Made by a program: the position numbers and the translations under genes. From positions 1 through 52,129 of the forward strand of contig SYFT01000006.1 in NCBI GenBank assembly GCA_005799825.1: a stretch of 52,129 nucleotides of DNA, written 5' to 3'. The DNA is from Acidobacteriota bacterium. GTDB taxonomy: Bacteria; Acidobacteriota; Vicinamibacteria; Vicinamibacterales; SCN-69-37. Under the pieces are notes generated by a model, which had not been told where the DNA came from, did not search any database, and was given only the letters and a program-made list of their open reading frames with translations. Within the stretch, counting starts at the first letter, position 1. Each line of letters opens with the position of its first letter. Shown here piece after piece: positions 3,446 to 46,189 of the stretch.

Positions 3446-3510
3446 AAGTTATCCGTAGTTGATGATACGCGGCCCGCGCCAACTTTGACGCGGGTCACAA
3501 GGAGATGTGA

Positions 3511-6294: not shown

Positions 6295-6310
6295 CGTTAC
6301 CTTCTTCCAT

Positions 6311-6366
6311 TCACACGAGGCATGTAGGACTGAAGGATTCCCTTCACTCCTTCACGCCTCGTGTGA
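6311..6366. repeat. Intercistronic inverted repeat between hyuB and MFS genes
   Basis: Perfect 11-bp arms TCACACGAGGC/GCCTCGTGTGA enclose a second 7-bp pair TGAAGGA/TCCTTCA. The stop codon of hyuB lies inside the loop. The transcript could fold into a nested hairpin between two cotranscribed genes, an arrangement seen at mRNA processing or partial-termination sites. Confidence 0.7.
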
Positions 6367-7924
6367 AACCAAAACCGCCACCGCCGGGAGTTTCTACTCG
6401 CAAACGATCTCCGGCGCGCAAGGTGATCTGCACTTTGCCCGGCAGCGGCGTTTCCTTGCCATCGCGAATGAGCGTGTTCCTGCCCACACCTCCAGGCCCA
6501 CCACCGCGTACCCCGTACGGCGCGAGACGACGCCGGTCGGTCAGCAAGGTCACAGACGTCTCGACCAGCATCTCGTATTCGCGCACCAGGCCCTCACCGC
6601 CGGGAGCGGCGCCCTCGCCGGCGCTTCCCTGCCGCAGACCATACTGCCGAATGCGCACGGGAAGATAGTGCTCAATCGCCTCGGAGGGCGTATTGCGCGT
6701 GTTGCTCATGTGCACGTGGACGCCGCTCAGGCCGGCCATGCCCTTGCGTCCGCCCATGCCGCCGCCCATGGTCTCGTAGTACGCAAACTGCCGGCCGGTC
6801 CTGGGGTCGGTCCCTCCCAGCGTCACGTTATTCATCGTTCCCTGACTGGCGGCCGGCCATCGATCAGGCTGGGCCTTGCCGAGGGCACCGAGCACCACGT
6901 CCGTGATGCGTTGCGATGTTTCGACGTTGCCCCCAGCCACCGCAGAGGGCCGAAGCGCATTCACAATCGAGCCCTCGGGTGCGATAACCTGGATCGGCCG
7001 GCCCACTCCCGCGTTATAGAGCACGTCGTCCTGCACGAGACACCGGAAGGCATAGAGGCAGGCCGACAGCGTGATGGCGTAGTTCGCGTTTACGCTGCCC
7101 GTCACCTGCGGCGCCGAGCCAGTGAAGTCCACCACCGCGCGGTCCTTCCGAATAGTCACCTTCACGCGAATCGGCACCGGCGCATCGCTGAACCCGTCGT
7201 CATCCAGCGCGTCTTCGAAGGTGTAGTCACCATCGCTTATGCCCTTGATGGCGTGACGCACCACACGTTCGGTGTAATCCTGCAACGCCGCGGCATAACG
7301 CATGGTCTGGGCGCGACCGTAACGCGCAACGACCGCGCGGAGGCGAGTCTCGGCCACACGGTTGGCAGCGATCTGCGCGGCGATGTCGCCCTCGCGCTCA
7401 TCGGGCGTGCGGACGTTATTGAGGAGGAGCGCCATGATGTCCTCCACGATCTGCCCTCGCCGGGCCAGCCGGACCGGCGGAATGATCAGCCCCTCCTGGT
7501 AAATCTCGCGCGCGACCGGCATTGAGCCCGGACTCATGCCGCCGACGTCCGAGTGATGCGCACGATTGGCCACGTAGCAGGCGGGCTTCTTCTCCCCGGC
7601 GAGGAACACGGGCGACACCAGCGTGATGTCGGGCAAATGCGTTCCGCCCCGAAAGGGGTCGTTGAGCATCACGATGTCGCCCGGCTCCATGTCCACCGCG
7701 TCGATGGCGGCGCGCACCGAAAGGGGCATCGCACCCAGATGCACAGGCATGTGATCGCCCTGCGCGATGGTGTTGCCTTCGGCGTCGTAGACGGCACACG
7801 AGTAGTCGAGGCGCTCCTTGATGTTTGGCGAGAACCCGGTGCGGCACAACGTGACGCCCATTTCCTCGGCGATTGAGAGGAACAGGTTCTTGAAGACTTC
7901 GAATTCGATGGGGTTCGGCTTCAT
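6344..7924 (-). CDS. hyuB: Hydantoinase B/oxoprolinase family protein (HyuB-like subunit)
   Basis: A 526-aa cytoplasmic subunit of the ATP-dependent hydantoinase/5-oxoprolinase type. It opens with the family pattern PIEFEVFKNLFLSIAEEMG, has LNDPFRGGTHLPDITL near residue 85-100 and YETMGGGMGGRKG near 380, and ends with a Gly-rich GGGFGF tail, all normal for HyuB of about 520-560 aa. Its ATG overlaps the hyuA stop by 4 nt, which implies translational coupling and a fixed subunit ratio. HyuA and HyuB together open cyclic amides at the expense of ATP. The exact substrate (5-oxoproline, N-methylhydantoin or another) cannot be told from sequence; the linked MFS permease suggests an imported compound. 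Confidence 0.92.
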   Translation of the reverse strand: MKPNPIEFEVFKNLFLSIAEEMGVTLCRTGFSPNIKERLDYSCAVYDAEGNTIAQGDHMPVHLGAMPLSVRAAIDAVDMEPGDIVMLNDPFRGGTHLPDITLVSPVFLAGEKKPACYVANRAHHSDVGGMSPGSMPVAREIYQEGLIIPPVRLARRGQIVEDIMALLLNNVRTPDEREGDIAAQIAANRVAETRLRAVVARYGRAQTMRYAAALQDYTERVVRHAIKGISDGDYTFEDALDDDGFSDAPVPIRVKVTIRKDRAVVDFTGSAPQVTGSVNANYAITLSACLYAFRCLVQDDVLYNAGVGRPIQVIAPEGSIVNALRPSAVAGGNVETSQRITDVVLGALGKAQPDRWPAASQGTMNNVTLGGTDPRTGRQFAYYETMGGGMGGRKGMAGLSGVHVHMSNTRNTPSEAIEHYLPVRIRQYGLRQGSAGEGAAPGGEGLVREYEMLVETSVTLLTDRRRLAPYGVRGGGPGGVGRNTLIRDGKETPLPGKVQITLRAGDRLRVETPGGGGFGFTRGVKE

Positions 7925-9960
7925 GATGCCCGCCCTTTCCGGGCCAGCACATTGCCATGGCCATCCACCTTGAATGTCCAGCCGGGCGGGACCACGGCCG
8001 TCGCTTCGCCGCCGGCGATGACTGCCGGACCGGATGCAAACGACCCGGGTTTCAAATCATCCCAGCGGTAGAACGCGACCTTCACGTTCTTGCCGGTGAA
8101 ACGGCCCGGACGAACTGCTGACGGCTTCGCCTTTGATGCGCCGCGGACTTTGGTGAACGGCAGTTTCGGCTTGTCGGTGATGCCTGCGGCTGAAACGCGG
8201 ACGTTGACCACTTCAGTGGCGCGTGCCGGGTTTGAGTAGCCGTACGTCTTGCCGTGCTGCTGGTCGAATACTTTTCGATAGTCAGCGGTCAGCGGCAATG
8301 TGATTTCGAACGACTGTCCGACGTATCGCACGTCAAGAGACAGCGTAATCACTTGACGCTTCGCAGGGAACCCTTCGGCCTCGAGTTCGGCCCTGGCAGC
8401 CGAGACGAGTGGCGCGCACAAGCGCTCCAGGTCCTTCACGGCTACTTGTGAACTGGCCTTGAGCACGCTGGCCGAATAGTCCTTCGTGACGTCGGCCACC
8501 AGCATCCCCAGCGCAGATAAGACGCCCGCATGCCTGGGCACAATCACCGTCTTGATTTCCAGTTGCTGCGCGATCTCGCAGGCGTGCATACCGCCGGCGC
8601 CGCCGAAGGCCAGCAACGCGAAGTCTCGCGGGTCGTGGCCGCGTTCCACTGACACCACTCGAATCGCGCGCTCCATATTGGCGTTCGCCACTCGCACAAT
8701 GCCGTCGGCGAGCTCGGGTACCGACAGCCCGGTCTGCTTCGCAAGCGCGGCCGCCACCCGTTGCGTGCGGACGGCGTCGATCGTCATGCGACCACCCAGG
8801 AAGTAGTCGGGGTCGAGCCGGCCGAGCAACAGGTTCGCGTCGGTGACGGTCAGTTCCTCGCCAACGCCGTAACAAACAGGACCCGGATTCGCGCCCGCGC
8901 TCCGTGGGCCGACCCGCAGCGCCCCACCGGTGTCGAGGTACGCGATCGATCCCCCGCCGGCACCCACAGTGTGGATGTCGATGAGGGGCAACCGAACCGG
9001 GAAATCTCCCACCTTCGAATCCGTCGTTCTCCCAATCCCATCGTCTATGAGACTGACGTCGGTGGACGTGCCGCCCATATCGAAGGAGATGACGCGCGGA
9101 AATCCCGCCGCATGGGCCACAGCGCAGGCCCCGACGACACCGGCAGCCGGACCGGAGAGCACGGTTCGGACAGCCTGCGCCCGCGCGGCGCCTGCCGAGA
9201 TGCACCCGCCGTTCGACTGCATGATCGATAGTCGGGGTCCCGGAGTCCCGAGGTCCCGTCGAGTCTTGCTTGTCTGGGTCCTGGGGTCCTGGAGTCCTGG
9301 GGTCAGGGCCCGCTCCAACGTGCCGAGATACCGGTCCATCAGGGGCGTCACGTACGCGTTGACCACCGTGGTGCTCCAGCGCTCGAACTCTCGGTACTCG
9401 GGCAGTACCTCGTGCGATGTGCACACAGCGAGGCCCGACTGCCGCAGCAGCGTAGCCACCTGTTGTTCGTGTGCGGGATTTGCGTATGAATGCAGGAGGC
9501 AGACGGCGACGATGGTGGCGCCGCGGTCATGGATGAAACGAGCGAGGCGGTCCACTTCCTCTTCGTTAACCGCTAGGAGCACGGCGCCAGAGGCGTCAAG
9601 CCTCTCAGTGACTCCGAACGTCAGGTCCGGGTCAACCAGCGGAGGCCGCGGCGCGACGAAGACGTTGTAGAGCTCGGGGCGGGTCTGGCGGCCAATCTTC
9701 AGGACGTCTTCGAACCCGCGCGTGGCGACTAGTGCCACTTGCGCACCCTTGCGTTCCAGTACTGCATTCGTGGCCACGGTGGAGCCATGGACGACGTCGA
9801 GGGACGTGGTCTGGCCCGTGAGGTGTCGAATGCCGTCGAGAATCGAGCGCGATGGGTCGTCAGGCGTGGACCGCTGTTTGTGAACGACGAGGCCGTCCGG
9901 CCCGAGGTGGACGAAGTCGGTGAACGTGCCACCGGTGTCGATGCCGATACGTGAACGCAC
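7921..9960 (-). CDS. hyuA: Hydantoinase A/oxoprolinase family protein (HyuA-like ATP-binding subunit)
   Basis: A 679-aa partner of HyuB, with an ASKHA-type fold that phosphorylates the cyclic amide. Motifs in order: GIDTGGTFTDFVHL at the N-terminus, GSTVATNAVLERKGA (~60), IMQSNGG (~245), SGPAAGVVGA (~270), DMGGTSTDVSL (~295) and GAGGGSIAYLD (~335). The ORF track starts at TTG 9963; I prefer GTG 9960 because TAATAT lies exactly 6 nt upstream, the recurring leaderless layout here. Before IMQSNGG, about 20 extra residues (LQDPRTQTSKTRRDLGTPGP) are encoded by a GTCC-type repeat array, an in-frame insertion on a surface loop by inference. It heads the hyuA-hyuB-MFS operon. Confidence 0.92.
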   Translation of the reverse strand: MRSRIGIDTGGTFTDFVHLGPDGLVVHKQRSTPDDPSRSILDGIRHLTGQTTSLDVVHGSTVATNAVLERKGAQVALVATRGFEDVLKIGRQTRPELYNVFVAPRPPLVDPDLTFGVTERLDASGAVLLAVNEEEVDRLARFIHDRGATIVAVCLLHSYANPAHEQQVATLLRQSGLAVCTSHEVLPEYREFERWSTTVVNAYVTPLMDRYLGTLERALTPGLQDPRTQTSKTRRDLGTPGPRLSIMQSNGGCISAGAARAQAVRTVLSGPAAGVVGACAVAHAAGFPRVISFDMGGTSTDVSLIDDGIGRTTDSKVGDFPVRLPLIDIHTVGAGGGSIAYLDTGGALRVGPRSAGANPGPVCYGVGEELTVTDANLLLGRLDPDYFLGGRMTIDAVRTQRVAAALAKQTGLSVPELADGIVRVANANMERAIRVVSVERGHDPRDFALLAFGGAGGMHACEIAQQLEIKTVIVPRHAGVLSALGMLVADVTKDYSASVLKASSQVAVKDLERLCAPLVSAARAELEAEGFPAKRQVITLSLDVRYVGQSFEITLPLTADYRKVFDQQHGKTYGYSNPARATEVVNVRVSAAGITDKPKLPFTKVRGASKAKPSAVRPGRFTGKNVKVAFYRWDDLKPGSFASGPAVIAGGEATAVVPPGWTFKVDGHGNVLARKGRAS
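9234..9306. repeat. GTCC-type array inside hyuA coding sequence
   Basis: GGGGTCCCGGAGTCCCGAGG on the left and GGGTCCTGGGGTCCTGGAGT on the right, about 73 nt in total. It is the same repeat family that elsewhere sits after stop codons, but here it is translated in frame within hyuA. Confidence 0.8.
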
Positions 9961-9972
9961 CAAGCGATATTA
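9961..9972 (-). promoter_or_regulatory. Leaderless-type -10 box of hyuA
   Basis: TAATAT followed by CGCTTG (6 nt) and then GTG. With a start site 6-7 nt after the -10, transcription would begin at the start codon. No Shine-Dalgarno is present. Confidence 0.65.
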
Positions 9973-10007
9973 GAGGTCTAGGGTCCAGAGGTCCAGAGTC
10001 CATCCTG
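9973..10007. repeat. Heptanucleotide array copy between SCO gene and hyuA
   Basis: GGTCTAGGGTCCAGAGGTCC followed by AGAGTCC: imperfect GTCCAGA units starting 19 nt after the SCO stop and directly upstream of the hyuA -10 box. A unit lies near the -35 position of hyuA. Confidence 0.75.
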
Positions 10008-10025
10008 CTGGTCGCCAGCCGGTCG

Positions 10026-10670
10026 TCACTTCCCCGTCGGCAGAAGCTCCCTGATGTCCTGAATGAGCTTCTGCACTTCATATGGCTGGGTGCCGCTGTA
10101 GACGCCTCGGATGTGGCCGTCGGCATCCATCAACAGGAGTTTTTCGGTGTGCAGGAAGGCGTTGGGCCCGGCCAGCGACGGCCTCATCCCGTCGTCATCG
10201 GCGAAATACAGATCGCGAGCAGCTCGCAGGACGCCGTGCGGGTTTCCGGTGAGCAGCTTCCACCTCGAGGGGGCCACTCCCCGATCCTTGCCAAACGCAC
10301 GGAGCACATCCACGGTGTCGAGGTCGGGGGTCACCGAGTATGAAAGGAGAACCACATCCGTGCCGGCTACGGCAGACTGGACCTTCTTCATCGATGACAC
10401 CAGAAGCGGACAGATCACCGAGCATCTGGTGAAGATAAAACTCGCCACATGGACGCGATCGCGAACGGAGGCCAGCGTGAAGCCGGCGCCCGTCTGGTCC
10501 ACAAACTGCTCGTCTGCCAAGGTGCCCTCAGTGACGGTGTGACCTGTAGCTGACCAGGAGGGCGAGAACGTGCGCTCAGAGTAATAGGGCAGATCGGCGT
10601 CCTGCGGCAGGCACGCGCCAAGGCCCACGGAGGCACAGGCCACGATGGCGACCCTCACGGTGCGAGTCAT
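10026..10670 (-). CDS. SCO1/SenC family lipoprotein (copper chaperone/thioredoxin-like)
   Basis: 214 aa. The ORF track start at 10934 is too early; ATG 10670 with GGAGAG upstream begins a typical lipoprotein signal (VRVAIVACASVGLGAC, lipid Cys at residue 20). The thioredoxin-like domain carries the SCO copper motif CSVIC (Cys 83 and 87) and the distal His in FLHTEKLLLMD. SCO proteins deliver copper to the CuA site of cytochrome oxidase or act as periplasmic thiol reductases. It is not next to oxidase genes here, although a ctaB/cupredoxin cluster lies 36 kb away. It is divergent from a broken histidine kinase whose surviving part begins about 30 bp from its start codon. Confidence 0.88.
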   Translation of the reverse strand: MTRTVRVAIVACASVGLGACLPQDADLPYYSERTFSPSWSATGHTVTEGTLADEQFVDQTGAGFTLASVRDRVHVASFIFTRCSVICPLLVSSMKKVQSAVAGTDVVLLSYSVTPDLDTVDVLRAFGKDRGVAPSRWKLLTGNPHGVLRAARDLYFADDDGMRPSLAGPNAFLHTEKLLLMDADGHIRGVYSGTQPYEVQKLIQDIRELLPTGK

Positions 10671-10700
10671 CACATCTCTCCTTTCACTTCCCCATCGCCT

Positions 10701-11120
10701 GCGGGCAGGCACGGCGTCGAAGTGAATGTCGCCGTGCCCGAAGGAGGCGTGGTGGTCGAGGCGGATCCCACTCTGGTAGAGCAGGCGATCAGCAATCTCG
10801 TGGACAACGGGGTTCGCTACAACACGCCCGGTGGCCACGTGGCGGTCGTGCTCGATCGCACCGGCACCGGGTGCGGCTTCCGGCTCACGGTTGAAGACGA
10901 TGGCCCGGGCGTAAAGCCGGATGAGCTGCCGCACCTCGCCACGCGGAGGTTCCGTGGAGACGACGCGCGATCGCGACGACCCGATGGTCAGGGGATTGGG
11001 CTGGCGATCGTGGCCGAGGCGATCGCACGAAGCGGATGGACGCTGCGCTTCCGCGCGAACTCGCCCTCAGGCCTGATTGCAAAGGTAGGTTCTTACCCGA
11101 TCGAGCCTTCCGGATACTGA
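10701..11120 (+). pseudogene. Sensor histidine kinase remnant (C-terminal ATPase domain only)
   Basis: The reading frame carries a complete HATPase_c motif series: N-box NLVDNGVRYN, G1 VEDDGPGVKP, F-box RRFRGD and G2 GQGIGLAIV. Family-like sequence (GRHGVEVNVAVPEGG) extends upstream of the only candidate start, GTG 10722, so the coding region once continued leftward. The dimerisation/phosphoacceptor helix, any sensor domain and the His box are missing, because the SCO gene start at 10670 intervenes. The 3' end runs 28 nt into the opposite DGQHR gene. It lacks a phosphoacceptor and cannot be a working kinase; an orphan ATPase is possible but unlikely. Confidence 0.8.
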
Positions 11121-12220
11121 AGGGCCAGTCGAAGTTCCTTCACCAACTGATCGACCGTCGAGCCCGAGCGCTTCCAAGCGCCGTCGGTTTCGAACCGGAG
11201 GTCGCCGATGCGGCGGCCCCAGGGGGCGATGATGCGGCCGATGGAGCGGAAGTCTGCGAGGTCGGCGTGTTGCTGGTCCAGGTGCCTGACGATATCTGGC
11301 GCGACACGGATGAAGGCGCGCAGCGCCGAGGCCGACTTGATGCTGTACTTGCGGCCGTTCCAGGCGGCGCCAAACACCACCGCCACCTGCTTGAAGTAGT
11401 TCACAAAGAAGCGCGTCGCCTCATCGCGGAACTCGTTCGTCTTTTTGACCGAGCCAAACGCCTCGGCTCCGAACAGTTTCTTGAGCTCCTGCGCCAGCGG
11501 CGCCTGGGCCACACGTCCGTGTCCCACACCCAGCAACTTGATCTCACCAAACAGCGGCGAGTCTTCGCGCTCGCTGAGCGCGCGAACCACATCGTGCGCG
11601 GCCGCGAGATTTTCATCGCGATAGAGCTGCCGTCCCGAGAGCGCCACCAGATGCGACGGATTGAGTCGCGTGTGCTTGGCGTTAATCGTGACAAACATTT
11701 GGACGACGTGGTCTTCGGGGAGACGGTCGAAGATGATGGCCGGCACGGTGAAGGACTCGTCGCCGAAGTGCTCGATACCCGCGTGGAGGGCGAGCAGGCG
11801 ATGCTGGCCGTCGATCGCGCGCAGGATGCCTTCGCGCTCGGGCACCTTGAGGATGCCCAGCGACGGTTCGCCCGGCATCGCGTCGAACTTGAGCGCCTCG
11901 TCGCACGAAATGATGACGGCGCCGGGGATGGACGGAAGATCGCGCGCCTGGCGGCACTGGTCGTAGTATCCCACCAGTTCGTCGATTTTCTTGCGGATGA
12001 TCTGGCGCTGGTAGGCCTTGTCGCTGGAGGCAATGCGGCGCTCCAGGAAGTCCCACCGGACCTTGGACTGCCTGGCGTTTCCGCGGACGCCCGATGCGCC
12101 CTGGTCGCCATAGCTCAGAACCTCGAAGCGTACGAGCTTGTCGATGTCCTTGGCGGTCAGCGAAGCCTGATAGAATTGGACGCCAAATTGCTGCATCCGG
12201 AGTGCGGCGACGGAAATCAT
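11093..12220 (-). CDS. DGQHR-domain (DndB-like) protein
   Basis: A 375-aa protein with the signature DGQHRLLAL near residue 145, the hallmark of the DGQHR domain found in DndB and related ParB-like proteins of DNA phosphorothioation and phage-defence loci. Family-like motifs flank it: an N-terminal GVQFYQASLTAKDI segment, VPAIIFDRL, and FVTINAKHTRLNPSHLVAL, which is typical of the group. ATG 12220 is preferred over 12256 because TACAAT sits 7 nt before it. No dndCDE, restriction or transposase genes adjoin, so this copy is an orphan; DndB usually represses its own dnd operon. It converges on and overlaps the histidine kinase remnant. A DNA-binding or defence-related role is inferred. Confidence 0.85.
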   Translation of the reverse strand: MISVAALRMQQFGVQFYQASLTAKDIDKLVRFEVLSYGDQGASGVRGNARQSKVRWDFLERRIASSDKAYQRQIIRKKIDELVGYYDQCRQARDLPSIPGAVIISCDEALKFDAMPGEPSLGILKVPEREGILRAIDGQHRLLALHAGIEHFGDESFTVPAIIFDRLPEDHVVQMFVTINAKHTRLNPSHLVALSGRQLYRDENLAAAHDVVRALSEREDSPLFGEIKLLGVGHGRVAQAPLAQELKKLFGAEAFGSVKKTNEFRDEATRFFVNYFKQVAVVFGAAWNGRKYSIKSASALRAFIRVAPDIVRHLDQQHADLADFRSIGRIIAPWGRRIGDLRFETDGAWKRSGSTVDQLVKELRLALQYPEGSIG

Positions 12221-12233
12221 AAACGCGATTGTA
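12221..12233 (-). promoter_or_regulatory. Leaderless-type -10 box of the DGQHR gene
   Basis: TACAAT, then CGCGTTT (7 nt), then ATG. This supports the shorter start. Confidence 0.6.
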
Positions 12234-12274
12234 GGTTGCGGCCTGTAGAATCTCAAGCCTTGAAGGAGTTACCG

Positions 12275-15202
12275 ATGAGAATCACTGGAGTTTCCCACCA
12301 AAGTTGGTGGATGTCGGCCGTCGGTCTGGCCGTCTTTATCCTGGCGGTGGCCACGGCCCCGGCCCAGCAGTCGGTGACCGAGACCCGGGACCCGAAGCAG
12401 GCCCAGGACGAAGAATTCGCGAAACTCTACGAGGAATGGACGGGAAATTCCATTTACGGCAGCCCGCTGGTGGACCATCTACCCAAGGTGCCGGGCATCC
12501 CGACCCCCAAGGACGTGCTCGGGTACTACATCGGAGCTCCAGGCAAACTCACCTACTACGAAGACATTCTCAACTATTACCGGGCGCTGGCCGCGGCCAC
12601 GCCCCGGGTCCGGATTGAGTCCATCGGGAAGTCGGACGAGGGCCGGGAACTGGTGGTGGTCTGGGTGTCTTCAGACGCCAACATCAAGGGCCTGCAGGGC
12701 AACCGCGACAACCTGGCCAAGCTGGCCGATCCCCGGGGCCTGAGTGAACCGCAGATCAAGAACCTCATCGCCACCACCAAGCCGCACTACCACCTGATGG
12801 GCGGCCTGCATTCGGGCGAACTCGGCCCCCCCGAGATGCTGATGGAGCTGGTCTACCGTCTGGCTGTTGAAACGTCGCCGCTCATCTCGCAGATTCGCAA
12901 CAACGTGATCGTTTCGGTCACGCCGGTGGCCGACGCCGACGGGCGCGACCGCAACCTCGATTGGTTCTACAAGGGTCTTGATGAGACGGCGGCTGCGGCC
13001 GCCGGTCAGCCGGGCGCCGTGGGTGCCGGCGGGCGTGGTGGTGGCGCAGGCGTGCCCTACTGGGGCAAGTACGTGTACCACGACAACAACCGCGACATTA
13101 ACCTCTCGCAGATGCAGATGCGCGGCCTGGGCGACTGGTACTTCACCGCCCACCCGCCGATCATGCACGACCTGCACGAGTCTTTGACGCTGCTCTACAC
13201 CTACAGCGGCGGTCCGCCCCAGAACCCGAACCTGGACCCCATCCTTTTTTCGGAACTGCCCTTTTTCTCGAACTTCGAGATGGCGCAGATGACCAAGTAC
13301 GGCATGCCGGGCGTCTACACGCACGCATTCATGGACGGCTGGTCGCCGGGTTACCTCGGCTCGCTCGCCTACAACCACAACGGCCTGATGAAGATGTACG
13401 AGACGCAGTCGGGCCGTGACCTTCCGAGGCCCGGTACGCCGGCGGTGGCCGAGGCGGCTCCTGGCGCGGGCGGTGCAGCGCCGCCTGCCGCAGTTGGTGC
13501 CGGCGGTGGCCGTGGTGCGGGACGAGGCGCACCGCCAGCAGGAGCCCGAGGTGCGGGTCCCGGAGGAGGGGCGCCCGGTGGCGGGCGCGCCGGCGGTGTG
13601 CCGACGGGTCGCGGCGGCGCTCAGCCGCGCGAGTGGTATCGCGGCCTGCCGGTGCCGCCCGATGCCGTCGCCAACTTCACGCGTCGCAACAACGCCAACT
13701 ACATGCAGACGGGCGTGCTCTCAGCCCTGCAGCTCACGTCGATGTTCCCGAACCTTGTGGTCGAGAACTTCTACACGAAGACCGCCAACTCCATCCGGCG
13801 CGGCCTCGACAATCCGCCCCACGCGTATGTGATTCCCGTGCAGCGCGACATGACGCGCGTGGCCGAACTCATCCGCATCATGGGCATCCAGGGCATCGAA
13901 GTGCGCCAGGCCGACGCGAAGTTCAAACTCGGCGAGGAAACGTTCCCGGCAGGCTCGTACCTCGTGAAGGCTGGCCAGCCCTACTGGAACCTCGCGAAGA
14001 ACCTTTTTGAGAAGCAGGACTATCCCGACGAACGCCTCTCCACGTACGACGACTCGGGGTGGACGATGGGCCCGGCGATGGGCGTGGATATCCGCGAGAT
14101 CAACAACAAGGACGTGCTGGAGGTGGAGACGAAGGTCGTTAAGACGTCCACCCACGCGGCTCGCATCATCGGCACCGGCACGGCCGGCATCGCGGTGGCG
14201 CACCTGGGTTCGAACAACATGGTGTCGTTCCGCTACGCGGTGCGAAACGTGGCGATGAAGGTGGCCGAGGCCAGCTTCACGGCATCGGGCATGGACTTTC
14301 CTGCCGGCTCATTCATCGTAGCGACGTCGTCCGACATCGCGGCTGTTCGCGCTGCCGTGGAGAAGTTCGGCCTCACGGCTGCCACGCTGGCGTCTATCCC
14401 CACGGTGGCAACGCACGACGCTGATGTGCCGCGTGTGGCCATCTACTCGCAGTGGGGCGGCACGCAGGAATTGGGTTGGTACCGGCACGCGTTTGACCAG
14501 TTTGGCATCCCCTTCGACCTCATCTACAAAGAGCGGGTGATGAAGGGCAACCTGAAAGCCGACTACGACGTGATTCTCATGGCGTACCAGGGCATCAATC
14601 GCCAGTCGGTGATGCAGGCGCCAGGCGCCAGGCCTGTGCCCTACATGAAGACCGACAAGTACAAGTTCCTGGGCATGTATGGCGAATCCCCGGATATCAC
14701 GGGCGGCTTCGGCCAGATGGGCGTGGATGCATTCGCGGCCTTCCTTGAGGGTGGCGGCACGCTCATCGCCGCGCACAATGCGGTGCGGTTCCCGATCGAG
14801 TTCGGCTTCGCGAAGTCTGTGGACACCGATCAGGTGGCCGGGATCACGGCGCAGCGCCCGCTCGTGCAGGCCGAGATCTCAAAACCCGACCATCCGGTGT
14901 TCTACGGCTACGGCAACAAGAGCTTCGGCGTGAAATATGTCAGCGGTCCGTTCCTGCGCGTCGGCATGTCGGACCAGGAGAACATCCTCGCCCGTTACGT
15001 CGGCGGCGATTCGTCCGTCATCTCCGGCCTGATGACCGGCGCGGATGTGCTCTCGCAGAAGGCCATCGCGGTTGACGTACCCGGCGCCCGCAACGGCAAA
15101 GGCCGCGTGCTCCTGTTTGCCAACAACCCGATCTATCGCTGGCAGAACCACGGCGAGTTCAACATGATCTTCAACTCGATCGTGAACTGGAACGACAGAT
15201 AG
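12275..15202 (+). CDS. M14 family zinc carboxypeptidase-like protein, exported, with C-terminal amidotransferase-like domain
   Basis: 975 aa from ATG 12275, which has GAAGGAG 6 nt upstream; the ORF track's 413-residue N-terminal extension is antisense to the DGQHR gene and is rejected. A signal peptide (VGLAVFILAVATAPAQQ) is followed by a carboxypeptidase domain with the zinc pair in LHSGELGPPEM (His 179, Glu 182), NNRDINLSQMQ and HDLHESL. A 60-residue Gly/Ala/Pro-rich insert near 400-450 (PPAAVGAGGGRGAGRGAPP) looks disordered. The last ~250 residues (VAIYSQWGG onward, FLEGGGTLIAAHNA) resemble a class I glutamine amidotransferase-like fold without an obvious Cys nucleophile. Periplasmic peptide turnover is likely. 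Its TAG stop forms the edge of an inverted heptamer repeat. Confidence 0.9.
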   Translation: MRITGVSHQSWWMSAVGLAVFILAVATAPAQQSVTETRDPKQAQDEEFAKLYEEWTGNSIYGSPLVDHLPKVPGIPTPKDVLGYYIGAPGKLTYYEDILNYYRALAAATPRVRIESIGKSDEGRELVVVWVSSDANIKGLQGNRDNLAKLADPRGLSEPQIKNLIATTKPHYHLMGGLHSGELGPPEMLMELVYRLAVETSPLISQIRNNVIVSVTPVADADGRDRNLDWFYKGLDETAAAAAGQPGAVGAGGRGGGAGVPYWGKYVYHDNNRDINLSQMQMRGLGDWYFTAHPPIMHDLHESLTLLYTYSGGPPQNPNLDPILFSELPFFSNFEMAQMTKYGMPGVYTHAFMDGWSPGYLGSLAYNHNGLMKMYETQSGRDLPRPGTPAVAEAAPGAGGAAPPAAVGAGGGRGAGRGAPPAGARGAGPGGGAPGGGRAGGVPTGRGGAQPREWYRGLPVPPDAVANFTRRNNANYMQTGVLSALQLTSMFPNLVVENFYTKTANSIRRGLDNPPHAYVIPVQRDMTRVAELIRIMGIQGIEVRQADAKFKLGEETFPAGSYLVKAGQPYWNLAKNLFEKQDYPDERLSTYDDSGWTMGPAMGVDIREINNKDVLEVETKVVKTSTHAARIIGTGTAGIAVAHLGSNNMVSFRYAVRNVAMKVAEASFTASGMDFPAGSFIVATSSDIAAVRAAVEKFGLTAATLASIPTVATHDADVPRVAIYSQWGGTQELGWYRHAFDQFGIPFDLIYKERVMKGNLKADYDVILMAYQGINRQSVMQAPGARPVPYMKTDKYKFLGMYGESPDITGGFGQMGVDAFAAFLEGGGTLIAAHNAVRFPIEFGFAKSVDTDQVAGITAQRPLVQAEISKPDHPVFYGYGNKSFGVKYVSGPFLRVGMSDQENILARYVGGDSSVISGLMTGADVLSQKAIAVDVPGARNGKGRVLLFANNPIYRWQNHGEFNMIFNSIVNWNDR

Positions 15203-38063: not shown

Positions 38064-39045
38064 GCCCTTATTGTTATCGGAACCTGACGTCCGGCGCGTA
38101 CTGCCCATGCCGGATCTGATTCAGGCCATGGCCTCCGCGCTCGCCGAGTACTCCGCAAACTGCGTGGCGCAACCGGTGCGTACGGTCATCGAGGTTGGCC
38201 CTGAACGCGCGTACTACGGCGTGATGCCGGCCGTGATCGACTCGCCCGCCGCCATGGGCGCCAAGCTCGTCACTGTCTACGCCGGCAACCACGCGCGGGG
38301 TCTGACGTCGCACCTGGCGACGATCATTCTTCTGGACCCGGCCACGGGTGCACTTGTCGCGTTGCTCGACGGGCGCTACATCACCGAGGCGCGCACGGCA
38401 GCCGTCTCGGCCGTGTCCGTTGATAGGCTTGCCCGCCCCGACGCCACGCGTCTGGCGATCATTGGCAGCGGCGTGCAGGCGCGAAGCCACCTCGACGCCA
38501 TCCGGCTCGTCCGGCCCCTGACGGGCGTGCGTGTGTGGAGCCCAAACGCCGCGCACTGCGCGGCGTTCGCGCAATCGGCGTCCGCCGACACCGGCCTCAC
38601 CGTCCGGGCCGCCGCCAGCGCGCGAACAGCGGTGCATGACGCCGACATTGTGGTGCTCGTCACAGCGTCCCCTGTGCCGGTCATCAACGACGAGGACATC
38701 GCGCCAGGCACCCACATCTGTGCGATCGGCGCCTGTCGGCCCACGCAACGGGAGATGCCAACAGCCCTGATCGCGAGATCACGCCTGTTTGTGGACTCGC
38801 GCGCGGCCGCACTGGTCGAAGCCGGCGACATCGTCCTGCCCCTTAAGGAAGGTGCTTTCACTGCCGACCACATCGTCGGCGAACTGGGTAGCCTCGTGCT
38901 GGGACGATGCGAGGGCCGGCGGTCCGGTGATGACGTGACACTGTTCAAGTCGCTCGGCATGGCGGTCGAAGATGTTGTCGCGGCGCAACTCGTGGTGGAA
39001 CGCGCGAGGATCGCTGGTCTGGGTACAGAGTTCTCACTCTCATGA
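38062..39045 (+). CDS. Ornithine cyclodeaminase/mu-crystallin family protein
   Basis: 327 aa from ATG 38062; the ORF-track N-terminal extension lies antisense to the racemase gene and is rejected. Family motifs include GAKLVTVYAGNHARGL, LLDPATGALVALLDGRYITEARTAAVSAV and the Rossmann loop LAIIGSGVQARSHL. This family covers ornithine cyclodeaminase and NAD(P)H-dependent delta-1-pyrroline-2-carboxylate or ketimine reductases. Beside a hydroxyproline-type racemase/dehydratase, reduction of pyrroline-2-carboxylate to proline is the better guess. Its stop overlaps the TPR-like gene start by 4 nt. Confidence 0.88.
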   Translation: MPLLLSEPDVRRVLPMPDLIQAMASALAEYSANCVAQPVRTVIEVGPERAYYGVMPAVIDSPAAMGAKLVTVYAGNHARGLTSHLATIILLDPATGALVALLDGRYITEARTAAVSAVSVDRLARPDATRLAIIGSGVQARSHLDAIRLVRPLTGVRVWSPNAAHCAAFAQSASADTGLTVRAAASARTAVHDADIVVLVTASPVPVINDEDIAPGTHICAIGACRPTQREMPTALIARSRLFVDSRAAALVEAGDIVLPLKEGAFTADHIVGELGSLVLGRCEGRRSGDDVTLFKSLGMAVEDVVAAQLVVERARIAGLGTEFSLS

Positions 39046-40253
39046 CAGCGCGAATGCGGACAGCGCTCGGCGCTCTGCTGATCGCCGCCCAGGCCGATCT
39101 CGCAGCCAACGCGCAGGTGGCGGAGCCCGCACGGGCTCCAGCCGAGGCCTTTCACGCCGCGTACAACCTGAACTACGAGGATGCTCTGCGTCTGGCGCGG
39201 CAGGACGCGGCCGCACGGCCGGATGACTCCGAAGCACACCGTACGCTGGCCACCGTCCTCTGGATGCATGCGCTCTTCACAAGGGGCGGTGCCACGATCG
39301 ACCACTACCTCGGAGGCCTGACGTCGTCTCAGATCAAGCTGCCCCCTCCACCCGCTGACGCCGACGCCGAATTCCGCAAACACCTGGGGCGCGCCATCGC
39401 CCTGGCTGAAGCTGCGGTCAAGCGCGACGTACGCAGCGTCGACGCGAGATACGACCTCGGGGCCGCACATGGGCTGCAGGCCTCGTACGTGGCGACGGTG
39501 GAAGGAAGGGTCACGCAGGCGTTCGGATCAGCGAGACGGGCCTACAACTCGCACGAGTGGGTGCTCGAGCACGCGCCGGATCGAACCGACGCCGGACTGG
39601 TGGTCGGTACGTACCGATACGCCGTGGCCGCGCTCTCGATGCCCAAGCGGCTTATCGCGTATATCGCCGGGTTTGGCGGCGGCGAGGAACGCGGGCTGCA
39701 GTTGATCGAAGGCGCGGCCAAACGTCCGCTCACGCGAACAGACGCACGCATCGCGCTGGCATTGATGTACAGCCGCGAGGGACGGCAAGCCGACGCGCTG
39801 TCCGTGCTCAAGGCGCTCTTCGCCGACCATCCACAGAACCGCCTACTGCAGCTCGAGATTGGGTCAGCGGCGTGGCGCGCCGGTCTGCCCGCCGAAGCAG
39901 AAGCCGCGCTGACGACTGGCCTGGCCTGGCACGACCGCGATACCCGCCCAAAGGTGCCTGGCGAACGCGCGCTGTGGATCTACAAACGCGGCATGGCCCG
40001 TGTCTCACTCAACCGACTCGACGATGCGGTGGCAGACCTCCGAGTGGCATTGACTCAGGCTCCGGTCGGCTGGGTCCGGGGCCGTATCCATCTGGAGTTA
40101 GGCAAGGTCGCCGACCTGCGCCAACAACGACCGACGGCCGTCACCGAATACCTGGCCGCCAGTGAGTTGTGCCGGGCCCATCAGGACCCGTGGTGTCAGG
40201 AGGAGGCCGGACGCCTGAGGAAACAACCATTCAGCTTCCGTCCAATCTCGTAG
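39042..40253 (+). CDS. TPR-like repeat protein, exported
   Basis: 403 aa with a short signal-like N-terminus (TALGALLIAAQADLAANA). Helical repeats with TPR spacing follow: ALRLARQDAAARPDDSEAHRTLA, IALALMYSREGRQADALSVL and GMARVSLNRLDDAVADLRVAL. No enzymatic motif is present. It overlaps the ornithine cyclodeaminase-like stop by 4 nt (ATGA) and may be cotranscribed, though no functional link is obvious. A periplasmic scaffold role is likely. Confidence 0.75.
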   Translation: MTARMRTALGALLIAAQADLAANAQVAEPARAPAEAFHAAYNLNYEDALRLARQDAAARPDDSEAHRTLATVLWMHALFTRGGATIDHYLGGLTSSQIKLPPPPADADAEFRKHLGRAIALAEAAVKRDVRSVDARYDLGAAHGLQASYVATVEGRVTQAFGSARRAYNSHEWVLEHAPDRTDAGLVVGTYRYAVAALSMPKRLIAYIAGFGGGEERGLQLIEGAAKRPLTRTDARIALALMYSREGRQADALSVLKALFADHPQNRLLQLEIGSAAWRAGLPAEAEAALTTGLAWHDRDTRPKVPGERALWIYKRGMARVSLNRLDDAVADLRVALTQAPVGWVRGRIHLELGKVADLRQQRPTAVTEYLAASELCRAHQDPWCQEEAGRLRKQPFSFRPIS

Positions 40254-41351: not shown

Positions 41352-42800
41352 CTATGCCAGTCGGAAGAACTTTCGCATTCGCGCCAGGAGCGACGCATGG
41401 GTCGCCGCCGGCGTTGCCCCTGGCGCGGATCTGACCGCGTCCAGTTCCGCGCGGCGCGCAGCCGCCGCCACGGCCAACGCATCCAGCACCGATGGCTGAC
41501 TCCGGACGTGCGCGCCAAACGCTTCCGCTGAAATTTCAAGGAGCATGCTGTCGCGTCGCGCAGCGACCGTGGCTGATCGGGTGTCGCCGGTGAGCAGCGA
41601 CATCTCGCCGAAGTAGCTTCCGCTTTCCGTGACAGCCACTTCGCATCGTTCTGGTCCGACAGAAATCACCACCGCGCCATCAGTGACCAAAAACATCGAT
41701 TCGCCGGGGTCGCCTTCCCTCACCACGACATCACCGCGCCCGTACAACCGCGGCCGCGCTGCCGCCGCCAGAGCCGCGTGCACGTCGGGCGTCAGACCCG
41801 AGAAGATCGGCACGGCCGCGATCTGCTGCTCACTTCGGTGGTGCTCGGCAATCAGGTCGCGTGGCACCTCCGTGCGCGCGTACTCCACCTGGATCGGCCA
41901 CGGAATCTCGATATCGCGTCGATGGAATTCGTAATAAATCGCCGTGCGCACTTCGTCCCGCGCCCGCTCGTCGTGCTCGAAGTCATGCACCCAGAACCGC
42001 GCCCTGAAGTTGATCGCGGAGGCGCCAAACTCCATCAGCATCACGTCCGGCGCCGGCTTCTCGAGCACCCGCGGACACCGCGCGAGGGCCACCATGATCG
42101 CCTCGCGCACCTGGTTGGGCGGAAACTGATAACCCGTGCCCACTTCCACAAACAACCGCGTGGGTGACAGCGGCTCTGAATAATTAGTAATGGCTTCCTT
42201 GCCGACGATGTTGTTGGGCACGATCACGAGGTTGCCGGTTTTGGTTTGAATCTTGGTGGCGCGCCAGGTGATCTCCGTGACCCGGCCCTGGAACGGGCCG
42301 ACCTCAATCCAGTGCCCGGGCTTAAACGGCCGGTCGATCTGCAGCGCGAGGCCTGCGAAAAAATTGCCCAGCGTGTCCTGCAGCGCGAAGCCCACGACGA
42401 CCGCGCCCACGGCGGACGCGGCGAGCAACTGCTCGGGAAACACCAGCGTGACGACCAGAAGAAAGACGCTGATAATCAGCGCGCCCTGCACGATGCCGGG
42501 CGCTCGCTCCGTGGCGTGCTCGCTGAACCACGGATGAAACAGCAGCGCGATGACTACCTGGATCGCGCCAAGAGTCAGCAGCAGTTTCTCAATGCTGAAG
42601 ATGTTGCCGGCATGCCCTTCCGACAGCGCGCCTCCGACCAGCACGAGATGGGCTAAGACGGCAGCGGCCGACACGCCCAAAGTGAGCCGGAGCCTGCGGC
42701 GGAGCGCGGGGTTGCGCACCGCACACAGGAGCGTCAGCGTGGCGACAAACAGCGCCACGCCGGCGAGGAAGTGCGGGCTTGTCAGACGCGCAGTATCCAC
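41352..42800 (-). CDS. MscS-family channel with C-terminal cyclic nucleotide-binding domain (bCNG-type)
   Basis: 482 aa. Four to five TM helices (about 10-160) lead into an MscS core: the pore-to-beta segment VVGFALQDTLGNFFAGLALQ and RPFKPGHWIEVGPFQGRVTEI (about 140-190). From about 330, a cNMP-binding domain appears with a phosphate-binding cassette YFGEMSLLTGDTRSATV, keeping the Glu and Arg that hold the cyclic phosphate. The family (bacterial cyclic nucleotide-gated MscS-like channels) opens on ligand rather than tension in studied members. It is the last gene of the cyclase-M48-channel operon, starting 1 nt after the M48 stop, so the cyclase is the likely ligand source. Confidence 0.9.
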   Translation of the reverse strand: MDTARLTSPHFLAGVALFVATLTLLCAVRNPALRRRLRLTLGVSAAAVLAHLVLVGGALSEGHAGNIFSIEKLLLTLGAIQVVIALLFHPWFSEHATERAPGIVQGALIISVFLLVVTLVFPEQLLAASAVGAVVVGFALQDTLGNFFAGLALQIDRPFKPGHWIEVGPFQGRVTEITWRATKIQTKTGNLVIVPNNIVGKEAITNYSEPLSPTRLFVEVGTGYQFPPNQVREAIMVALARCPRVLEKPAPDVMLMEFGASAINFRARFWVHDFEHDERARDEVRTAIYYEFHRRDIEIPWPIQVEYARTEVPRDLIAEHHRSEQQIAAVPIFSGLTPDVHAALAAAARPRLYGRGDVVVREGDPGESMFLVTDGAVVISVGPERCEVAVTESGSYFGEMSLLTGDTRSATVAARRDSMLLEISAEAFGAHVRSQPSVLDALAVAAAARRAELDAVRSAPGATPAATHASLLARMRKFFRLA

Positions 42801-42801
42801 G

Positions 42802-43959
42802 TCAGCCCGAGATGCCCTTACGGAATGCCGCGATTTCGGCCGGCGTTATCGTCACGGTCACGCGGGCCGGGTTCGATCCGCCCCTGGAGTCGCGGTCAGG
42901 ATTGACTCCGCGCGATCCGGCCGATGCCATCGTGCCGGTGTTTGTTTTGTCGGCACCCAGCTTCGATGTGACCCCACCGAGGCCGAACTTGCTTGAAGAC
43001 GCCGGTGGCTTCGCCGTCGAGGTCGTCGAAGTCTCGGCCGGCTTGGCCGTGGTCGTCGTTGGCGTAACTGTCGAGCCCGTGCTGCCTGTCAGCGAGGACG
43101 CCCCTGCGGCGCCGGCGACAACCGCGACCGCGACTGGCTTGTAGACAATTGTTGCCCTGTAGCGCGCAGCGACCGTGGCGGTCGCGTTCAGCTTCTCGGA
43201 TGTGATCTGTTTCGCCAACTTGTTGACGCGGTCTTTCGTTTCAGGATGTGAGGCAAACACGCCGCTCGGTTCTTTCAAGTCCTTGTTCCTGTCGGACAGG
43301 CGCGTGAGGAACTTACCCAGGCCGGCTGGGGCGTACCCGACTTTATTGGCCATCCTGATGCCTACCTGATCCGACTCGTTCTCGTCGCCGCGGTCGTACT
43401 GGTTCTCAAGCAGGTTGGCATAGGCCGAGTCGAGCATGAACTCCAGCACGTTGCTGCGTGTGGCAGCCTCGACCGCGCCACCGGTCACCTTCGATTTCTT
43501 GATCGCATTGATCGTGTGCTTCTCGGTGATGTGGGCAATCTCGTGACCGAGCACGCCGGCCAGTTCGGCTTCGTCCGCGATGAGTGCCAGCGCGCCGCGC
43601 GTGATGTGCACGAAGCCTCCGGGGGCCGCAAACGCGTTGACGCCGTCGGTGTCGAGCACGATGAACGTCCACGCGAGATTCGGCCGTGTGCTCGACGAGG
43701 CCACTACGCGGCCAACCAGCGACACGTACTTGTGCACCAGGGCGACCTGCACCACACCGTACTTCTGGCTCAGGCGGGTGCTGATGGCTGCACCCATGTC
43801 TTTTTCTTCCTGCTCGGTGATGACGAGATCCTTGACCTGGTCCGCCATGCTCTTGGCCTTGCTCAGCTTGCCGACGGCCTGCCCGAGTTTGCCGACTTGC
43901 GCCGAAGTCGGCGCCGCGACCGAGAGCATCAATACCGTGATGAACAGCATCCGCCTCAT
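42802..43959 (-). CDS. M48 family metallopeptidase, exported
   Basis: 385 aa with a signal peptide (MLFITVLMLSVAAPTSA). The zinc site is VLGHEIAHITEKHT (HExxH), with the third ligand in DENESDQVGIRMA. It resembles secreted BepA/LoiP-like M48C proteases. A long low-complexity tail follows (TPTTTTAKPAETSTTSTAKP), possibly cell-wall-spanning or a linker, then a short conserved end. Its ATG overlaps the cyclase stop by 4 nt, and the MscS-CNBD channel gene follows at once. It might process or guard envelope proteins in the same pathway; that is inferred from the operon. Confidence 0.9.
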   Translation of the reverse strand: MRRMLFITVLMLSVAAPTSAQVGKLGQAVGKLSKAKSMADQVKDLVITEQEEKDMGAAISTRLSQKYGVVQVALVHKYVSLVGRVVASSSTRPNLAWTFIVLDTDGVNAFAAPGGFVHITRGALALIADEAELAGVLGHEIAHITEKHTINAIKKSKVTGGAVEAATRSNVLEFMLDSAYANLLENQYDRGDENESDQVGIRMANKVGYAPAGLGKFLTRLSDRNKDLKEPSGVFASHPETKDRVNKLAKQITSEKLNATATVAARYRATIVYKPVAVAVVAGAAGASSLTGSTGSTVTPTTTTAKPAETSTTSTAKPPASSSKFGLGGVTSKLGADKTNTGTMASAGSRGVNPDRDSRGGSNPARVTVTITPAEIAAFRKGISG

Positions 43960-45974
43960 AAACGCCCCCCTAATACTTCGTGCACCACGATCGCCTGGGC
44001 CTTGCCCTTCACCATAATCGCACCAAGCTCGCGCGTCGGCACAATCGTCGTCAGTCTCGATCTCACGGCCTCGCTGATGAGGATCCGCACGCCGTGCTCC
44101 TTGGTCGCCGACTCGAGACGCGAACCCAGATTGACCGAGTCTCCGATCACCGTATAACTCATGACCGTGTCGGACCCGATGTTACCCGCAATCATGTCCC
44201 CGGAGTTGATGCCAATCCCAATGTCCACGGTGGGCATGCCCCGGGCCTTCCAGTCGGCGTTGAGCCGGTTCAGCTCCTGAACCATCTCAAGGGCCGCGGC
44301 CACGGCATGGTCAGCATGGTGCGGGTCGGTCACGGGTGCGCCGAACAGGCCCATCACCATATCGCCCACGAACTTATCTAGAGTGCCTTGGTGCCGGAAC
44401 AAGACGGCCACCATCGCGGAGAAATACTCGTTGAGCTGCGCCACCACGGCTTCCGGCGTGGCCTTTTCCGAGGCGGTCGTAAACCCGCGAATATCCGAAA
44501 AGAGGACGGTCATTTCGCGGCGCTGGCCACCCAGTCGTGCGAGCGACGGATCTGCCACCAGATGCGCAAATACATCGGGTGACACGTACCGGCCGAATAG
44601 TTGTTTCATTTCGCGCTTCGCACGCCCCTCAACGAAATATTGCCAGGCGGTGCCGCCGAAAGTGGCGAGCCCGAGGCCCAACACCGGCGGCACGAGGCTG
44701 ACCCACACGCCCGCCCCAATCGCTGCGGTCGTCGCCCAGACGAGGATGGCGCCCAGGACCAGGACCACGCCCACCGCCCATCCGACGGGCAGCACCACGG
44801 CCACAACCCCGGCCACAAGGCTGACGCCGGCAATGGTCAATACGTCCACAGTAGTGCCAGCCTTGCGCATGAACCGCTGCGACAACACGTCATCAACTGT
44901 CGCCGCGTGAAGCTGAGCGCCCGGCATGGACGGGCCGCCGAACGGCGACGGGTACGTGTCCTTCAGGCCGGGAGCGGTGGTGCCGATGAACACGTACTTC
45001 CCTCGGAACTCAGCTGGGTCCACGAGGGGTACGGCGCCATTCAGCAACAGGTCTTCGGAACGCAACAGGTCTATAAACGAATAGGCCGGATATGTGCGTT
45101 GCCCTTTCGCATCTGCATAGGGTCCGCGTAATCGAAGCAACATCTGACGCGACGGTAGTGCTTCACCGGTGGTCGAGCGCGCGGGTGCGGCCAGCAGTGG
45201 CACTTGCGCCGAGCCGACACGCAGGATCGACTGGTCCATCGAGACTGCCAAGGCCGGCACCCGATCGGCGGCCAGGAATGACGCCAGCCCGAGCCAGGGC
45301 ACCGGCCGCCCTTGAGCGACGACAAACGGTAGCACGCGGCGCACCGTACCGTCGGGGTCGAGTTCCAGCATGGTGTGGCCGACCGCCGCGCTTGCCGCGG
45401 CGAGGTTTGCAAACGGCAGGCGCAGGTACGGCCGCACATAGAAGCCGGTCCCCGGGTCGTAGTTCACGCCGGGCAGCGGCGGCGCGGTGGGCACCGGTGC
45501 TTCCGCGGTGGACGAGCCTTCAAAAATCGCTTCAGCCGCCAGCACCACGTTTCCGGCGCGCCTGACGCTTTCAACAAGCGCAGCATCCGATTCGGCGCCC
45601 GACATGGTCGCGCCGCTGTCTCCCAGCGGAAACGCACCGCGAAGATCCCGGTCCACGAACAGCACATCGTAGGCGATGACCTTCGCCTGCCCGCGCGTAA
45701 GAAAATCCACCACGGCCGAGTGCACCACCCGCGGCCACGGCCATCGGCCAAACGTAGGTTCCAGTAGTCGCAGCGACGATTCATCGATTTCGACGATGAC
45801 TATGTCCTGATGCGCCGCACCACCTCGCGCGAGGCTGGTGCCATGCGTGGCCACGATCCGGCGGTCGTACGTGGAAAGCTCCTGGTCGGTAAAGACCTGG
45901 AACAGGCCGAGGCCGGAGGCCAGCGCCCACGCCAGGCCGCCGATGGCGAGACCGCTCGCGACTTTTCTCATCAA
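43956..45974 (-). CDS. Adenylate cyclase with CHASE2 sensor domain
   Basis: 672 aa. An N-terminal TM is followed by an extracytoplasmic CHASE2 domain (about 40-340; IVIVEIDESSLRLLEPTFGRWPWPR, KVIAYDVLFVDRD, FRGKYVFIGTTAPGLKD), three TM helices (about 355-435) and a class III cyclase domain (about 475-650). Metal Asp residues are in FSDIRGF and FVGDMVMGLFGAP. The adenine-selecting Lys is in TLDKFVGD and the transition-state Asn/Arg in DSVNLGSRLE, so an active ATP-specific enzyme is expected. It heads the operon with M48 and the cNMP-gated MscS-like channel. Confidence 0.93.
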   Translation of the reverse strand: MMRKVASGLAIGGLAWALASGLGLFQVFTDQELSTYDRRIVATHGTSLARGGAAHQDIVIVEIDESSLRLLEPTFGRWPWPRVVHSAVVDFLTRGQAKVIAYDVLFVDRDLRGAFPLGDSGATMSGAESDAALVESVRRAGNVVLAAEAIFEGSSTAEAPVPTAPPLPGVNYDPGTGFYVRPYLRLPFANLAAASAAVGHTMLELDPDGTVRRVLPFVVAQGRPVPWLGLASFLAADRVPALAVSMDQSILRVGSAQVPLLAAPARSTTGEALPSRQMLLRLRGPYADAKGQRTYPAYSFIDLLRSEDLLLNGAVPLVDPAEFRGKYVFIGTTAPGLKDTYPSPFGGPSMPGAQLHAATVDDVLSQRFMRKAGTTVDVLTIAGVSLVAGVVAVVLPVGWAVGVVLVLGAILVWATTAAIGAGVWVSLVPPVLGLGLATFGGTAWQYFVEGRAKREMKQLFGRYVSPDVFAHLVADPSLARLGGQRREMTVLFSDIRGFTTASEKATPEAVVAQLNEYFSAMVAVLFRHQGTLDKFVGDMVMGLFGAPVTDPHHADHAVAAALEMVQELNRLNADWKARGMPTVDIGIGINSGDMIAGNIGSDTVMSYTVIGDSVNLGSRLESATKEHGVRILISEAVRSRLTTIVPTRELGAIMVKGKAQAIVVHEVLGGRL

Positions 45975-46047: not shown

Positions 46048-46114
46048 GCCTTCGCAATGCGTTCGCTGGCTCGCCAGTCGTAGCAGTGAGCGAAGCGAAC
46101 GTTCTTGCGAAGGC
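46048..46114. repeat. Long inverted repeat directly 3' of tRNA-Glu
   Basis: GCCTTCGCAATGCGTTCGCT (46048-46067) pairs with AGCGAACGTTCTTGCGAAGG (from 46094) over about 20 bp with a small bulge, loop 26 nt. It begins at the base after the tRNA CCA. It may serve as terminator or processing signal; no T-tract follows. Confidence 0.75.
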
Positions 46115-46189
46115 TGGTAGCGGTACGGGGATTCGAACCCCGGTTCTGTGGTTGAGAACCACATGTCCTAACCCCTAGACGATACCGCC
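46115..46189 (-). tRNA. tRNA-Glu (anticodon CTC)
   Basis: 75 nt including an encoded CCA. The anticodon arm GTGG-TTCTCAA-CCAC puts CTC in the loop, reading GAG. The T arm is GGGGTTCGAATCCCC and the D arm TCGTCTAGGGGTTAGGA resembles tRNA-Glu genes. The acceptor GGCGGTA pairs with TACCGCT, giving G1-U72 as a wobble and discriminator A73. Confidence 0.93.

Follow-up and report, generated by a model that had tools for sequence, protein, structure and literature searches.

What ties an exported protease to a cyclase and a channel? The question is raised by a three-gene operon in a 52,129-nucleotide stretch of contig SYFT01000006.1 (referred to here as the window) from a member of the Acidobacteriota, order Vicinamibacterales, which we take to be a soil and water bacterium. 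The first-pass annotation read the genes as a self-contained circuit in which an envelope signal raises cAMP and opens the operon's own channel, with the protease acting on the sensor or on damaged envelope proteins. The CHASE2 sensor domain is widespread in bacteria, yet its trigger is known in few cases; to our knowledge, no cyclase has been assigned to feed a cyclic nucleotide (cNMP)-gated MscS channel. The operon resembles a complete envelope-sensing circuit, and no description of the triad, or of CHASE2 with M48, was found in a literature search made up mostly of open-access journals. With its cyclase, protease, channel and tail module all defined, and with deletions and fusions that occur naturally, it makes both the triggering of CHASE2 and the identity of a channel-feeding cyclase directly testable.

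Gene order and intact domains of the operon

The operon (41352-45974, minus strand) is transcribed in the order CHASE2 cyclase, M48 protease, MscS/cNMP-domain channel, and all three open reading frames are intact. The cyclase gene (43956..45974) and the protease gene (42802..43959) overlap by 4 nt, the stop of one and the start of the other sharing an ATGA, and the protease gene is followed by the channel gene (41352..42800, GTG start) after a single nucleotide (TGA-C-GTG). Gene order, the 4-nt and 1-nt junctions and the sequence motifs had been read correctly in the first-pass annotation, as had the integrity of the catalytic residues. Its phrase "overlapping operon" applies to the first junction but not to the second, which is a gap, and it gave the extent of the operon correctly but listed the entry at 43956-45974, a span that covers the cyclase gene only. 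The cyclase frame opens with a TTG at 45974 directly followed by an ATG at 45971, and the ATG is the likelier start. Some 140 bases separate the start of the operon from a tRNA-Glu (CTC) gene that lies upstream at 46115-46189, also on the minus strand. Between that gene and the cyclase lies an inverted repeat (GCCTTCGCAA ... TTGCGAAGGC, 46048-46114); no second copy was found within the window, and it could be a tRNA terminator or a repeat element.

The predicted cyclase matched Pfam CHASE2 (3e-50) and Guanylate_cyc (4e-25). Its CHASE2 domain (residues 20-389; 44808..45917) sits between an N-terminal transmembrane helix and a transmembrane cluster, N-terminal to the output domain as expected of a CHASE2 sensor cyclase, and is predicted from hydropathy to be periplasmic. 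The nearest solved chains to the catalytic domain (43992..44519) are bacterial adenylate cyclases, including CyaB. Residues D494, D538, K534, T608, N615 and R619 were invariant in an alignment of 24 orthologues (orthologues in the residue alignments were 42-91% identical to the window's proteins). We take D494 and D538 to bind the metals, K534 and T608 to form the purine pocket in the class IIIb adenylate pattern, and N615 and R619 to be the Asn/Arg transition-state residues, which together make up the residue set of a class III (IIIb) adenylate cyclase. No other Guanylate_cyc (class III cyclase) protein is encoded in the window's genome, and the product is very probably cAMP.

The protease matched Peptidase_M48 (2e-28), and its catalytic domain (43210..43731) carries HEIAH and a downstream glutamate; H139, E140, H143 and E193 were invariant in the aligned orthologues and correspond to the HEXXH motif and the third zinc ligand of M48 enzymes. 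Because the signal peptide ends in ...PTSA-Q and is not followed by a lipobox cysteine, the protein is expected to reside in the periplasm. The solved structures nearest to it are 3c37 and BepA. E. coli BepA and LoiP are periplasmic M48 proteases involved in outer-membrane quality control, and the operon protease shares their exported M48 catalytic domain, BepA being a significant structural and sequence match. It differs from them in scoring far under the NCBIfam equivalogue cut-offs (100 versus 570 bits for BepA and 61 versus 365 bits for LoiP), in lacking a TPR domain, in carrying a conserved C-terminal tail, and in being genetically tied to a cyclase.

The channel has five hydrophobic segments and matched MS_channel_2nd (2e-20), MS_channel_3rd (5e-12) and cNMP_binding (7e-18). 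An MscS pore, a beta domain (42177..42377) and a C-terminal cNMP-binding domain (CNBD; 41511..41750, FGEMSLLTGDTRSATV) are all present, which is the architecture of bacterial cyclic nucleotide-gated (bCNG) channels. The phosphate-binding cassette (GE...R-x-A: G398-E399...R408-x-A410) was intact and invariant in the aligned orthologues, and we assign these four residues to the cassette on the basis of family knowledge. The protein ends in a conserved short basic helix (sllxRmrxFlrl; 41355-41400) after the CNBD. The catalytic domain of the cyclase and the CNBD are both predicted to face the cytoplasm, and with CHASE2 on the periplasmic side, the predicted compartments would fit a circuit.

Inheritance of the triad among relatives

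Sixty related genomes, many of them metagenome drafts, were searched with each of the three proteins. Orthologue thresholds were placed where the scores showed a gap (approximately 390 bits for the cyclase, 240 bits for the protease and 320 bits for the channel), and fragments at contig edges were accepted in the count. All three genes were present in 32 of the 60 relatives and none in 26. The two exceptions were G050, in which the cyclase side is missing on a 4.3-kb contig, and G008, in which the channel alone has been lost: its cyclase and protease genes remain, directly followed by the genes that border the channel in the window. The co-inheritance gave a Fisher p of 1e-14, a value that ignores kinship, and six families hold both states, with the three genes switching together.

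At 27 of 30 testable channel loci, the genes were adjacent with order and strand unchanged, which far exceeds chance. The cyclase-protease junction was exactly -4 nt in 11 of 26 cases, and the gap was no more than 20 nt in 21. Three genomes (G030, G045 and G049) have an unlinked channel and still possess all three genes; at loci L079 and L093, the channel and the cyclase-protease pair are transcribed convergently, and in G484, a genome from outside the order, the cyclase and a protease-channel pair are transcribed divergently. The first-pass proposal hung on the three genes co-occurring in relatives, and they do so, which makes the triad a genuine conserved unit whose members are genetically linked. 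No fourth gene as conserved as the triad was found at the related loci; only a TPR-protein gene convergent with the operon (window 39042-40253) recurs, with a homologue at 16 of 29. Similar parts were seen in a different pairing at locus L118, where an MscS-CNBD channel (6644-8149, plus strand) lies near a convergent CHASE2 cyclase (9000-11228, minus strand), with a FecR-like gene (12081-12857, minus strand) upstream of the cyclase.

A tail module shared by the protease and protein X

The last 45 or so residues of the protease (42805..42942) are strongly conserved and are preceded by a disordered linker. This module, designated here the GARG tail, was previously unnamed and is absent from the first-pass account. 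It has the motif ..S.GSRGV....GG....V.VT.AEI.AF.KG..G, and AlphaFold2 gave pLDDT values of 93-96 for residues 361-380 within it, as if the tail were packed on the protease. A search for the tail in 297 Acidobacteriota genomes returned only the proteases of the operon, G484, a short frame in G523 and a marginal match in G317 (E 0.007). The G523 tail is strong and lies in a 65-aa open frame (L197, G523:C1:55702-55842), possibly a broken protease gene, in a genome that has no strong channel match.

A scan of the whole collection with a channel profile found the cyclase, channel and M48 protease together in the Gemmatimonadota too. The M48 proteins of this phylum have no GARG tail; the tail motif instead ends a separate protein, X, which is predicted to be exported and whose gene lies just upstream of the M48 gene, between cyclase and protease. 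The C-terminal motif of X is GARGVD...VTPD...F...G.L. Alignment of the tail with X gave an hhalign E value of 4.7e-7 (probability 92.5), and with nine X sequences the score was 39.7, whereas 300 column shuffles reached 18.4 at most. A search with X found further Gemmatimonadota operons, and three arrangements were seen. The order is cyclase, channel, X, M48 at L111, L130 and L218 (G060, G061 and G628) and, as far as the contig end, at L126 (G062); it is cyclase, X, M48 at L174, L219 and L220 (G107, G680 and G640). At L221-L223 (G646, G714 and G558), the cyclase continues in frame from its C terminus through a hydrophobic segment into X, and the M48 gene follows. The GARG module can therefore be carried by the protease, by a separate protein or by the cyclase, which argues that cyclase, tail and protease function as one complex; these three components make up the predicted core of the operon. 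One Vicinamibacteria draft genome (G013, L037 6834-9767, minus strand) has cyclase and M48 in a single 978-aa open frame, which could be a naturally fused gene or an error in the draft sequence; as it comes from one draft contig, it is not used as proof.

X itself had no significant Pfam or NCBIfam match. Its likeness to RseB/MucB and LolA-like sensors or carriers of the periplasm is weak: it is exported and beta-rich, and its best fold matches were LolA, LolB and LprG, all non-significant, with RseB lower (best Foldseek E 0.02, to LolA, from a low-confidence model with pLDDT 58.6); unlike RseB/MucB, it is linked to a cyclase and not to an anti-sigma factor. In a tree whose outgroup branches are few and long, the operon cyclases of both phyla clustered (support 85), and three of four other CHASE2 cyclases fell outside the cluster. 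A first channel tree split the two phyla, as if each had recruited the channel independently; an AU test, however, did not reject a single clade and gave a better tree with the phyla joined (p 0.665), so the channel may have entered the operon once or twice.

Six of the ten Gemmatimonadota operons have no channel gene, and only separate MscS or CNBD matches, not a full-length channel homologue, were found elsewhere in those six genomes. Because of these operons and the loss in G008, the channel is a frequent but dispensable output that lies outside the operon core. In Myxococcota and other phyla, similar channels occur with no operon-type cyclase or protease nearby.

A candidate envelope-to-channel cAMP pathway and its alternatives

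We hypothesized that the core consists of an inner-membrane CHASE2 adenylate cyclase and a periplasmic M48 protease coupled by the GARG tail, with protease and tail acting as a periplasmic co-sensor of the cyclase. An envelope fault would occupy or release the protease-tail pair, and the altered state of the pair would change the CHASE2 domain and switch on cAMP synthesis; cAMP would then bind the CNBD of the co-encoded channel and open it, so that solutes or ions are released. That cyclase and protease belong to one pathway is very likely. Judged from sequence, a single cAMP pathway with the channel as one output is the reading we lean towards, albeit slightly, and the chances are even that protease and tail stand upstream of the cyclase and not downstream; the co-sensor step is the least certain part. 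The parts are compatible with the route from envelope signal through cAMP to channel that the first-pass annotation had drawn, but the channel is not in the core of that route. Since the shared tail and the gene fusions link protease and cyclase more tightly than channel and cyclase are linked, the protease is likelier to be part of the sensor, and a general clean-up enzyme, the other role that had been offered for it, is less likely.

In Sinorhizobium meliloti, the CHASE2 cyclases CyaD1, CyaD2 and CyaK respond via the outer-membrane protein NsrA, and the output regulator is Clr (PMC13001267). The likeness is that CHASE2 adenylate cyclases answer an envelope-delivered signal through an envelope partner protein; there, however, a beta-barrel serves as partner and a CRP-type regulator as output, whereas in the operon the partner would be the GARG-tailed M48 protease and a likely output the channel. 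Our broadest proposal, which is tentative, is that the M48 protease and its mobile GARG tail form a periplasmic co-receptor that switches the CHASE2 adenylate cyclase, a previously unrecognized protease-coupled cAMP receptor system, and that in Vicinamibacteria and part of the Gemmatimonadota, a cAMP-gated MscS channel from the same operon provides a direct, transcription-independent output. If true, this would be a short cAMP circuit that works on a channel and not on transcription.

The protease could instead be a downstream or processing enzyme, responsible for maturation or turnover of the CHASE2 sensor or of the channel, with the cyclase module working without any signal carried by the protease. 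An exported protease encoded beside a protein with a large periplasmic domain would be consistent with this, as would the persistence of the cyclase-protease pair where the channel is lost; however, a tail that shifts among protease, X and a cyclase-X fusion suits a shared complex better than one-off processing, and we consider the processing role doubtful. It is less probable still that the three are simply co-regulated genes for envelope stress, needed simultaneously but connected neither physically nor by a second messenger. All three are plausible as envelope-stress genes, and gene order differs between the phyla, but inheritance is all-or-none even where the genes are unlinked, and the CNBD on the channel, the shared tail and the fusions also argue against mere co-regulation.

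A cyclase encoded with a CNBD membrane effector also recalls Pycsar, in which infection would lead to a cyclic nucleotide and the CNBD channel would act as a membrane-damaging effector. PADLOC weakly matched the cyclase domain to PycC and the CNBD to Pycsar effectors, but these are domain-level matches that cover only common cyclase and CNBD domains and not a dedicated PycC with a TIR or transmembrane effector. The operon differs further in its protease, its periplasmic CHASE2 sensor and the invariant Lys/Thr of its purine-type pocket; known Pycsar effector domains are absent, no TIR or 2TM effector or defence-gene neighbours were seen, and the genes have been retained within a single bacterial order, in a conserved chromosomal context with stable flanking genes. 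An anti-phage function is accordingly very improbable.

For the envelope-to-channel pathway, the output end can be compared with the bCNG family, which, in the account of Caldwell et al. 2010 as cited in PMC4560390, combines an MscS fold with a C-terminal cNMP-binding domain and has cyclic nucleotides as its class of gating ligand. The operon channel is likened to this family by architecture and cassette and differs in sharing its operon and its inheritance with one cyclase and an M48 protease; judged from those features, it is likely to be gated by cAMP from that cyclase. The genome's only CRP/FNR-like candidate (L192, G000:C104:45600-47500) is split over frames and has no canonical cNMP cassette, so a cAMP-CRP transcriptional output is not evident. 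Intact cNMP cassettes also occur in two other proteins of the genome, a CNBD-patatin and an NDH-2-CNBD protein, so the operon's cAMP probably reaches targets besides the channel, and to call the circuit "self-contained" was too strong. The two lie at L191 (G000:C94:5500-14500; ORFs 1815-3620 and 5844-7598), where the patatin-like phospholipase and NDH-2-like oxidoreductase genes flank a haem-peroxidase-like gene, and both proteins are possible extra targets of cAMP.
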